Part shown: positions 46,710 through 49,304 of the stretch, in pieces
Layout of the letters: the number at the start of each line of letters is the position of its first letter
How positions within the stretch are numbered: position 1 is the stretch's first letter
Origin: Blastopirellula sediminis
Lineage (GTDB): Bacteria > Planctomycetota > Planctomycetia > Pirellulales > Pirellulaceae
Assembly (NCBI RefSeq): GCF_020966755.1
Contig: NZ_JAJKFT010000010.1
Coordinates: 3,413,415 to 3,477,414, forward strand
DNA: 64,000 nucleotides
Direction of reading: 5' to 3'
The notes under the pieces: generated by a model
Told to the model about the DNA's origin: nothing
What the model saw: the letters and a program-made list of their open reading frames with translations, nothing else
Database searches by the model: none
Program-made: the position numbers and the translations under genes

Positions 46710-46740
46710 TATCTGCGTACATCTGCGCGAATCTGCGGTT
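46710..46740 (+). repeat. Triple-decamer repeat, copy 1
   Basis: Three 10-mers in tandem, each beginning ATCTGCG (tails TAC, CGA, GTT). Confidence 0.85.
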
Positions 46741-46766
46741 TAGCATCTTCCCCTAGGAGTTTTTGG

Positions 46767-46796
46767 AACCGCAGATGAACGCAGATTTGCGCAGAT
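46767..46796 (-). repeat. Triple-decamer repeat, copy 2 (inverted)
   Basis: Same element on the opposite strand: plus-strand sequence begins AACCGCAGAT and ends GCGCAGAT. Confidence 0.85.
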
Positions 46797-46925: not shown

Positions 46926-46958
46926 TTATCTGCGTTCATCTGCGCAAATCTGCGGTTC
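46926..46958 (+). repeat. Triple-decamer repeat, copy 3, reaching the GxxExxY stop codon
   Basis: The repeat ends TGCGGTT and the next bases complete TCA, the reverse complement of TGA that ends the GxxExxY gene. So the 3' end of that gene enters the repeat. Confidence 0.85.
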
Positions 46959-47412
46959 AAAACCCTCTCTTCGGAGACGTTGGAACTGCTGGTGAGTTGG
47001 ATTGGCGTAGATGGTTGTTGATGAACCGTTTGTATTCGAGTTGGGAGGTTGCAAAGTTAAATAGGATCGCTCGACCGAAGCCGGTCGCCTTTAGGTAGTG
47101 TAGGACTTGCGCATCCTCAATTTCCGACAGTTTTTTGATCGCCTTCAGTTCGACAATGATCGAACCAAAGCAGACGAAATCGGCTTTATAGGGGGCGGAT
47201 AAGGAAAGCCCTTTGTAGAGGATCAGAATCGATTGTTCACGGACGTAGGGCACGTTTCGGTCGATGAATTCCCGTTCGAGCGCATCCTGGTAAACCCCCT
47301 CCAGGAATCCGCATCCGAGTAGGGAGTGAACTTCCATCGCCGCGCCGATGATCGCATAGGTTTGCGGATCGCGCTGGCTCGCCAGCTCGTTTCGACTTTT
47401 ATCTGCGTTCAT
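46957..47412 (-). CDS. GxxExxY protein (PDDEXK-superfamily nuclease-like)
   Basis: 151 residues from the ATG at 47410-47412 (MNADKSRNELASQRD). The G-C-G-F-L-E-G-V-Y motif names the family. YKADFVCFGSIIVELKAIKK carries D and E-L-K, the acid-x-E-x-K pattern of PDDEXK nucleases. Family members are often found next to repetitive DNA, but no function is established. The start lies inside a decamer repeat and overlaps the ATPase stop by one base (TGATG). Its stop codon is in another repeat copy, so both ends of the gene are set by repeats. An upstream in-frame extension is open to 48141 but overlaps the ATPase in another frame and is not counted. Confidence 0.85.
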   Translation of the reverse strand: MNADKSRNELASQRDPQTYAIIGAAMEVHSLLGCGFLEGVYQDALEREFIDRNVPYVREQSILILYKGLSLSAPYKADFVCFGSIIVELKAIKKLSEIEDAQVLHYLKATGFGRAILFNFATSQLEYKRFINNHLRQSNSPAVPTSPKRGF

Positions 47413-47432
47413 CAGCGCACCTCTGCGGTTAA
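47399..47432 (+). repeat. Triple-decamer repeat, copy 4, joining two genes
   Basis: Diverged copy with ATCAGCG and CTCTGCG in the second and third decamers. On the minus strand it encodes the ATPase C-terminus LTAEVR-stop and, overlapping by one base, the GxxExxY start MNADK. Confidence 0.85.
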
Positions 47433-48758
47433 CTTCTTGCCTCGCTTCCTCACCAACGCTTTTTCTGCCGCTTCGGCCGACGTTTGCGCTCTTTCCGCGT
47501 GGAGCGGACTGGACTCGCCGGCTGCTTTTTTTTTCTCGACCGCTGGCGGCGATTCGAGTGGACTGGACTCCAAACTTATTTTTTCGAGTTGGGCGAGGAT
47601 GGCGGCTCTTCGCCGCGGAGAATCGTCGAGTGGACTCTGCGGTGAAGTTTTTTCGTCGTCCGACGGCGATGGTTCGACTCGGTTGCCCGAGACTGCTTTC
47701 GTTGCGGGCGGATCGACTGGACTCGGCGGCGATTTTTTTTCGTTGGCGGCGAGCAACTCGGCGGTCGTCATGGTTTGGAAATACTGGTCGATCGGCGAGT
47801 TGTGGACTCGGCCGAAGTTTTTCGGTTCGGATGGATCGATCAGGCGATAACGCGATTCCGAGGATTGGCGATTCGGATCGGCCGGCGTGATGAAGGTAAT
47901 CTCGCCCCCGTCGATCAGGCCATCCCACGCAATGCGAAACTTGGCGCCGCTCATCCCGGACCATTCGCGGATGCGCAACTTGGTCGCATCGGCTGGCTTG
48001 ATCCGCTTGAGGACGGCTCGCACCTTTCGCTTGAGATGCTCTTCCAGCGACGCTGCCGCAAGTTCGGCGCTTTCCTGCTCGACCGACGCGCGATCGCGGA
48101 GCGTCACTTGATCGGCTCCTTCCTCGATGTCGACGCCCCACAATCCGCTCTGCCCGGCGTCATTGCCATGCGTCAGCCAGAGTCGCTGTCGATCGGTCCC
48201 CGGCGTAAACGCTTCGCGGCGATTCACCAAGAGCCATTGCCGCGCGACAGCGCCGCACGGAGCGCTCGCCAGATCGGACGTATCCATGGTGCGCGGCCGT
48301 AACTCTTTCCGCGTGCGGGCGCAAACGATCGGCGTCGCGCCAGCCGCCAGGCAACAGCGAACCAGGCTGCGGAGCTGGGCCGTTTCGGCTTTGGGAGTGG
48401 ACGCCGACGTTAAATCGGCCGCGTCGATCAGGACCACTTCCAATTGATGGCGCTCGATCCAATCGCTCAGCCGCCGCAGGTTCACCGGTTCGCCGGGGCT
48501 GATCAGATTGAACGCCCAGACGATCCGATCGAGCGACGGCGGATCAACGTCGGCCGCTGCGCTGCTGCGCCGGGCGGAATTGGCGACGACATCCTGCGTC
48601 TCTTCGCCGCCAACAAAGCCGACCTGAAAGGCTCGTTCGGCGGAGAACTGCCCCAGAAACTGACCTCCGCTCGCCAGCGCCGCGCAGAGATCGACGGCAA
48701 GCGACGTTTTCAAGCAGCGACTTGGCCCCAAAATCACCGCCGCTTGCCGCTGGCGCAA
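47412..48758 (-). CDS. RepA-like AAA ATPase, start codon displaced by a repeat insertion
   Basis: 448 residues from the first usable start, TTG at 48756-48758. ILGPSRCLKTSLAVDLCAAL is a Walker A-like loop (GPSRCLKTS) of the AAA_25/RepA group, VVLIDAADL the Walker B strand. A winged-helix-like part (KLRIREWSGMSGAKFRIAWD) follows, then a Ser/Pro-rich tail with repeated SPLE/SSPL units. The reading frame stays open upstream to 48941 (SLDPPELEPLESLTISQLL is visible just before the TTG) and enters the REP-like element, but contains no ATG or GTG. So the true 5' end was probably lost or shifted. Plasmid-type helicase or replication role by homology; not proven. Confidence 0.75.
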   Translation of the reverse strand: MRQRQAAVILGPSRCLKTSLAVDLCAALASGGQFLGQFSAERAFQVGFVGGEETQDVVANSARRSSAAADVDPPSLDRIVWAFNLISPGEPVNLRRLSDWIERHQLEVVLIDAADLTSASTPKAETAQLRSLVRCCLAAGATPIVCARTRKELRPRTMDTSDLASAPCGAVARQWLLVNRREAFTPGTDRQRLWLTHGNDAGQSGLWGVDIEEGADQVTLRDRASVEQESAELAAASLEEHLKRKVRAVLKRIKPADATKLRIREWSGMSGAKFRIAWDGLIDGGEITFITPADPNRQSSESRYRLIDPSEPKNFGRVHNSPIDQYFQTMTTAELLAANEKKSPPSPVDPPATKAVSGNRVEPSPSDDEKTSPQSPLDDSPRRRAAILAQLEKISLESSPLESPPAVEKKKAAGESSPLHAERAQTSAEAAEKALVRKRGKKLTAEVR

Positions 48759-48941
48759 CAGGCCGGAGAGTAGCCACTGCGGCGGCGTTTGCCGCGCGAG
48801 CAGTTGGGAAATCGTCAGCGACTCGAGCGGTTCCAGCTCAGGCGGATCGAGCGATTCGCCAACCGGAAACGTCTCACGTAGGCTGGGTCGAGACCCGGCT
48901 CTTGCGAGCGTAACGTGCTGCGCTGGGTCTCGACCTTCGAA

Positions 48942-49100
48942 TTACCCACATCTCAATAAGCAACGCTATCGTAGCGTTGCTTAACCGAAGACTCGGCTTG
49001 ACTTACGGTTTTCACGCCTTGTTGAGTCTCAACAGAGTCGGAATCGTGTAACTGATTGAGCTATTTGCGGTTCTGTCAATTGTTGTTGAGATGTGGGTAA
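48942..49100. repeat. MITE-like element, copy 1
   Basis: 159 bp with perfect 15-bp terminal inverted repeats TTACCCACATCTCAA / TTGAGATGTGGGTAA. An internal perfect hairpin (11-bp arms AAGCAACGCTA around TCG) lies at 48958-48982. No open frame. Confidence 0.88.
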
Positions 49101-49122
49101 GAGTGAGGTCTCGACCTTCGAA

Positions 49123-49281
49123 TTACCCACATCTCAATAAGCAACGCTATCGTAGCGTTGCTTAACCGAAGACTCGGCTTGACTTACGGTTTTCACGCCT
49201 TGTTGAGTCTCAACAGAGTCGGAATCGTGTAACTGATTGAGCTATTTGCGGTTCTGTCAATTGTTGTTGAGATGTGGGTAA
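49123..49281. repeat. MITE-like element, copy 2
   Basis: Appears identical to copy 1, 181 bp downstream, with the same terminal repeats and internal hairpin (49139-49163). The 22-bp spacer to copy 1 contains GGTCTCGACC. Confidence 0.88.
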
Positions 49282-49304
49282 GAGTGAGGTCTCGACCCAG
49301 CCTA

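Follow-up and report, generated by a model that had tools for sequence, protein, structure and literature searches.

Among described systems, the REPIN/RAYT pairs come closest to the one considered here, sharing with it dispersed inverted short repeats, a solitary gene beside its own repeat type and the co-evolution of gene and repeat (PMC3116915, PMC8266576); the first of these portrays RAYTs as apparently incapable of self-mobilization (PMC3116915). Here, we analyze a GxxExxY gene bordered by triple-decamer repeats in a 64,000-nucleotide (nt) stretch of Blastopirellula sediminis DNA (the window), together with related loci in other genomes. Judging from sequence comparisons, the repeat–gene–repeat unit likely propagates as a mobile element of very small size, and the GxxExxY protein, a predicted nuclease, is likely the agent of copying. 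We lean towards a reading in which, for relatives of this gene, a unit of ~430–480 bp, present at unrelated sites in different genomes, encodes a Cas4-like predicted nuclease that would recognize its own repeats as ends, cut there, and spread both the unit and, in trans, gene-less copies of it. No description of the GxxExxY–repeat pairing was found in the parts of the open-licence PubMed Central literature available to us.

Two sets of loci were scanned for triple repeats. The family set held 92 loci (2 own, 30 returned by the search, and 60 taken top-down from the match list with some skipped), while the phyla set held the 80 best named loci, mostly metagenome-assembled and drawn from 17 phyla; 2 of these 80 loci are the same genes as 2 in the family set. 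Flanks of 260 nt were scanned at a unit spacing of 8–11, with low-complexity filtering and a minimum score of 20 out of 21; segments of the same loci lying >600 nt off served as controls. A triple repeat was present in 113/180 flanks versus 17/431 controls in the family set and in 96/155 versus 20/1049 in the phyla set. At score 19, the corresponding values were 148/180 versus 34/431 and 115/155 versus 101/1049, and a first scan with spacing 9–11 gave a like result. A preliminary description had stated that GxxExxY genes often lie beside repeats, which is borne out by frequencies far above those in farther DNA of the same loci. Of 88 family loci with both flanks at least 150 nt long, 42 had a triple repeat on both sides, 25 on one, and 21 on neither; for 75 phyla loci, the numbers were 34, 24, and 17. 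Separately, one locus (L087 1048–1872) encodes two GxxExxY domains fused in one protein, and one genome (G135) contains 28 GxxExxY matches, several of them partial.

Each repeat, hereafter an arm, comprises three near-identical 8- to 11-nt units that match within a locus and differ between gene groups. Across 102 loci, 63 had best arms inverted with AACC outward, 30 had direct ones, and 9 had the opposite inversion. The arms of a locus lie some 400 nt from each other; their 7-mer cores were identical in 89/102 loci, compared with a mean of 14.4 and a maximum of 26 under random arm pairing, implying that the six units of a locus are kept in step. Cores also correspond to protein type; for example, LSNRVIGCAIEVHR-type proteins pair with CACGAAG, DESYxIxGACFEVY-type proteins mostly with CACGAAA, CACGAAT, or CGCGAAT, and the window-type protein with CGCAGAT. 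The nearest protein neighbor at a different site had the identical core in 27 of 52 typeable cases (of the 92 loci), a value reached by none of 10,000 permutations (mean 4.8). The within-locus arm agreement appears more telling than this neighbor agreement. Where one decamer repeat had been expected at every GxxExxY gene, there are many cores that follow the protein group, and a single conserved decamer was rejected on that ground. Regular arrays of arms were also seen, one with a spacing of about 370 nt (G013 C1 515426–519538) and one of seven CACGGAA arms at intervals of about 138 nt (L285 510–1362).

The extent of the unit is clearest in the CACGAAG group, in which seven loci from six genera have pairwise DNA similarities of 71–94%. 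In 18 of the 21 pairs, similarity ends on either side no more than 12 nt from the outer edge of the first locus's arm. Because the sequences of two loci (L030 and L101) start just 9 nt beyond the left arm, the left boundary says little in 8 of these 18 pairs, those with L030 or L101 as a member; neither end is limited in this way in the other 10. The 3 remaining pairs (among L030, L046, and L101) show similarity extending 35–146 nt beyond the right arm. In other, more diverged groups, most matches end within the arms or the arm is untyped. The suggestion that the repeat is the element's own boundary is supported in the CACGAAG group, with a unit of ~430 bp and a gene of ~370 nt. We conclude that, in at least this group, unrelated places appear to have received copies of the whole arm–gene–arm unit.

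Gene-less loci were also compared with GxxExxY coding DNA. Eighteen CACGAAG/CACAGAG-type loci with inverted arms and no gene were picked among the matches listed; 6 of them (L289–L293 and L296) hold remnants of GxxExxY coding sequence between the arms, 3 match 18 nt of arm only, and 9 are without a match. Locus L296 of genome G015 retains both gene ends, lacks the middle, and has 91% identity to that genome's intact gene, L016. We conclude that some solo palindromes are apparently deleted copies of the unit. Homing would read these palindromes in reverse, as empty targets: the gene would invade pre-existing palindromes by cutting and repair copying, with the arms providing homology. A stand-alone predicted nuclease and the lack of a target-site duplication signal would suit such a process, as would the gene-less pairs of several 9-spaced families, which share the AACC-arm-spacer-arm-GGTT layout of the gene-bearing unit. 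Nevertheless, the 6 of 18 loci with remnants look like deleted copies, the flanks of gene-bearing CACGAAG units are mutually unmatched, and the window-family gene-less palindromes have the opposite polarity, making homing quite improbable in our estimation.

One junction is occupied in one genome and unoccupied in three genus mates. In genome G135, a unit (L021) lies between two genes that we take to be tsaB and ispG, in a gap of 775 nt. In three genus mates, the same gap is without a GxxExxY gene and measures 78 (G160), 78 (G162), and 116 nt (G155), with no arm visible in the printed gaps; all three genomes have GxxExxY genes elsewhere. This junction is a candidate for the empty sites in sister strains that the preliminary description had proposed to look for, although the sequence is too diverged for the exact join to be read and the difference may instead reflect loss.

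In the mechanism we propose, the GxxExxY protein would recognize its own inverted triple repeats as unit ends and cut at the arms, and cutting would drive copying of the unit, and of gene-less copies in trans, within chromosomes. Copying could proceed by a hairpin, single-strand, or repair-coupled route, any of which is likelier than a classical cut-and-paste transposase because no target-site duplication signal was seen (mean direct-repeat length 2.85 versus 3.03 for shuffled partners among 61 usable units). The arms, their usual inversion, their agreement, the ends of CACGAAG homology, the partly deleted genes, and the unoccupied junction can be read from the sequences themselves. The idea that gene and repeats move as a cassette is largely supported by the repeat association, the arm-edge boundaries, the remnants, and the junction, while movement itself and the role of the protein are inferred.

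The AlphaFold model of the window protein (predicted local distance difference test score, 88) and its fold matches indicate a Cas4/lambda-exonuclease-like fold, in which the PD-(D/E)XK residues Asp78, Glu88, and Lys90 are invariant or nearly so in a 30-row alignment. Across the GxxExxY alignment, E, D, and ExK are conserved and a QxxxY pattern is frequent. The family had been called PDDEXK-like, which agrees with the core fold and D/ExK residues of the predicted nuclease. In NCBIfam and Pfam, the window gene matched only TIGR04256 (125.9 bits; cut-off, 35) and PF13366 (115.8; cut-off, 22), with no transposase domain. Other assignments were considered and rejected. T7 endonuclease I matched at an E value of 0.77 only, and junction resolvases occupied low positions in the fold lists. 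Anti-phage defence was set aside as the window protein had no PADLOC match; L016 matched the PADLOC Cas4 weakly (E value, 0.0054). As for phage or plasmid cargo, the L016 query matched 0/50,697 phage records and 8/72,556 plasmid records.

Within the window lie four triple-decamer arms with the pattern ATCTGCGNNNATCTGCGNNNATCTGCGGTT. The features of the locus are as follows.

46957..47412, minus strand: GxxExxY gene (TIGR04256, PF13366), 151 amino acids (aa); supported by open reading frame, NCBIfam, Pfam, AlphaFold model, and fold matches.
47401..47430, plus strand: triple-decamer arm, copy 4, with two mismatches to the pattern; contains the ATG of GxxExxY and the TGA of the ATPase.
46928..46957, plus strand: triple-decamer arm, copy 3; pairs with 46984–47013 as one palindrome.
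46984..47013, minus strand: decayed opposite arm within the 3′ end of the GxxExxY gene; its equivalent in the congener G107 bears a TAA stop.
46711..46796, no strand: gene-less palindrome; arm 46711–46740 (plus), 26-nt spacer, inverted arm 46767–46796 (minus).
47412..48758, minus strand: neighboring AAA_25 ATPase gene; its final codons are repeat DNA, and it belongs to a paralogous family in the genome.

The preliminary sequence observation is partly confirmed. Copy 4 does encode both the LTAEVR-stop of the ATPase (ending ...KKLTAEVR-TGA) and the MNADK start of GxxExxY, with the one-base overlap TGATG. Copy 3 had been said to supply the GxxExxY TGA; it contributes the final A only (base 46957), and the 3′ end of the gene crosses the 26-nt spacer and the decayed inverted arm at 46984–47013. 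Copies 1 and 2 (46711–46740 and 46767–46796) form a palindrome separate from that of copy 3. Upstream of the ATPase gene, at 48926–49287, a 181-nt sequence occurs as an exact tandem duplicate, with palindromes in both copies (e.g., TAAGCAACGCTATCGTAGCGTTGCTTA). The AAA_25 ATPase family has 21 matching places in the window genome (G000) and 11–16 in genus mates, and several window-type solo palindromes (among L124, L125, and L129–L131) lie near its members.

The window genome (7.05 Mb) and G107, of the same genus, have in common the gene order ATPase, GxxExxY, and then what we take to be a cytochrome gene, thiC, and a major facilitator superfamily (MFS) gene; the two GxxExxY proteins are 73% identical. 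In G107, an intact arm holds the start of the gene and another arm, with one mismatch, holds its end (...HLR-TAA), and the longer C-terminus in the window thus fits decay of a stop-bearing arm. The G107 ATPase stops ahead of the arm, so an ATPase stop within the arm is not common to the two genomes. Genomes G018 and G080 have neither a GxxExxY match nor the window repeat; they keep cytochrome–thiC–MFS and hold other genes in place of the ATPase–GxxExxY block, which leaves the boundaries unreadable at this locus. The window copy looks old, as G107 has it at the same site and the 3′ arm has decayed.

Allowing up to 3 mismatches, the arm pattern matched 12 times in the window genome, 4 of these in the window, against 0 for the backward pattern, and is therefore far from chance. 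The 8 matches outside the window form five other sites, each an inverted pair with some arms degenerate, and G107 has more; dispersed inverted pairs are a REPIN/RAYT trait. These solo palindromes have both arms in common and, for the type with a 26-nt spacer, much of the spacer, while most flanks differ (L126 and L127 have some outer sequence in common). With up to 2 mismatches, the pattern occurred in 9/149 family genomes, and the backward control gave one match in one genome. Empty sites for solo palindromes were sought at two places and rejected: at the first, the neighboring gene was unmatched in G018 and G080, with weak partial matches in G107; at the second, G107 has a decayed element by eye, and G018 and G080 are without the gene. 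In the second GxxExxY gene of the window genome (L001 1477–1851), VEIE stands in place of the VE(L/I)K of the others; by eye, the gene has a different degenerate CACGGA-type repeat inverted at both ends.

Several observations, beyond the missing duplication signal and the possible loss at tsaB–ispG, weigh against copying by the GxxExxY protein. No recent movement of the window unit is visible, G107 having it at the same site, and the L001 protein has lost its catalytic lysine. At score 20, the nearest arms pointed outward in 17/42 family loci, the adverse figure, compared with 25/34 phyla loci. Linkage by descent can by itself produce the agreement between arms and protein groups. No gene remnant was found in 15 further gene-less loci (4 CACGGAA-type and 11 window-type; 3 with 26-nt arm matches), lowering the overall count to 6/33, with 0/11 at window-type sites. 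Arms also abound without a partner. Locus L083 (arm CACGGAA) gave 30–49 matches in each of G123, G150, G156, G163, and G164 and 15 in G151; among those listed, most correspond to the arm, and one arm can match both query arms, so the true number is perhaps half. Within the stretches fetched, none of the GxxExxY genes from these genomes has a CACGGAA arm; they have other arms or none, some lie at contig ends, and a fourth gene counted by the search in G123 was outside the fetched set. The ACCACRRAG trimer was present in 41/107 genomes with a GxxExxY match versus 4/42 without (149 genomes; Fisher p 0.0006; backward control, 0), and G003 has 17 trimers and no GxxExxY match. Taken strictly, so many repeats away from a matching gene would count as one of the refutations named in the preliminary description.

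These unaccompanied arms, together with the armless GxxExxY loci at score 20 (21/88 family, 17/75 phyla), favour a reading in which the arms are dispersed repeats moved by another enzyme and GxxExxY is a passenger or a cellular nuclease lying beside them by chance. However, arm sequence differs by protein group and arm cores agree within most loci, as given above, and an unrelated mover is not expected to track the protein. Furthermore, the ~370-nt gene fills the ~430-bp unit and leaves no room for another gene. We consider another mover unlikely.

The unit had also been thought to bring its own start and stop, which is not general: the start codon lies within or touches the best upstream arm in only 11/68 loci, and the stop reaches or passes the inner edge of the best arm downstream in only 6/73. 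Both figures count against the unit as first conceived, and start and stop always within arms was rejected as a rule. That arms adjoin start and stop codons in some loci might suggest that they regulate the gene as operators or RNA hairpins. Against this, the distance from arm to start and stop varies widely, arms occur on both sides of the gene, and many copies lie away from any GxxExxY gene; a regulatory role is thus highly improbable.

If copying by the GxxExxY protein is correct, a nuclease-only element would join the few known routes for the spread of very small DNA units in bacteria. More tentatively, and somewhat short of what we would call probable, GxxExxY proteins, found in 17 phyla including archaea, could constitute a new class of mobility enzyme, in which a solitary Cas4-like nuclease recognizes inverted triple-unit ends through a protein-specific 7-base core and, with no transposase, integrase, or target-site duplication involved, spreads the ~430-bp unit together with gene-less derivatives. 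Annotation pipelines name this widespread family by its motif alone, and the repeat link gives it a testable job. Conversely, many genomes carry dispersed repeats of the CACGAAG/CACAGAG kind, a class that the link to GxxExxY would explain. The many protein–repeat pairs, varying at defined core positions, also represent a natural set for a DNA-recognition code.

Compared with Cas4, RecB-type, and lambda exonucleases, GxxExxY proteins have a like predicted fold, the conserved E, D, and ExK residues, and the frequent QxxxY pattern. Cas4 membership is marked by the cysteines of an iron–sulphur cluster, whereas GxxExxY proteins are about 123 aa and have no conserved set of such cysteines in the 30-row alignment. 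Homing endonuclease genes are likewise stand-alone and selfish-looking, but the flanks of GxxExxY units are mutually unmatched and inverted arms accompany the gene; a homing endonuclease domain (3r3p) ranked only 29th among the fold matches (E value, 0.11). As in insertion sequences and miniature inverted-repeat transposable elements (MITEs), inverted ends surround one gene and partly deleted copies keep those ends. Unlike insertion sequences, the unit is without a transposase domain or target-site duplication signal and is about 430 bp in the CACGAAG group. Relative to REPIN/RAYT, the enzyme is PD-(D/E)XK with a Cas4-like predicted fold rather than a Y1 (HUH) tyrosine enzyme, and each arm has three 8–11-nt units. 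The gene and arms also occur together at unrelated sites, whereas RAYTs reportedly appear unable to mobilize themselves (PMC3116915). By analogy, the GxxExxY system would work like REPIN/RAYT or a MITE without being a member of either.
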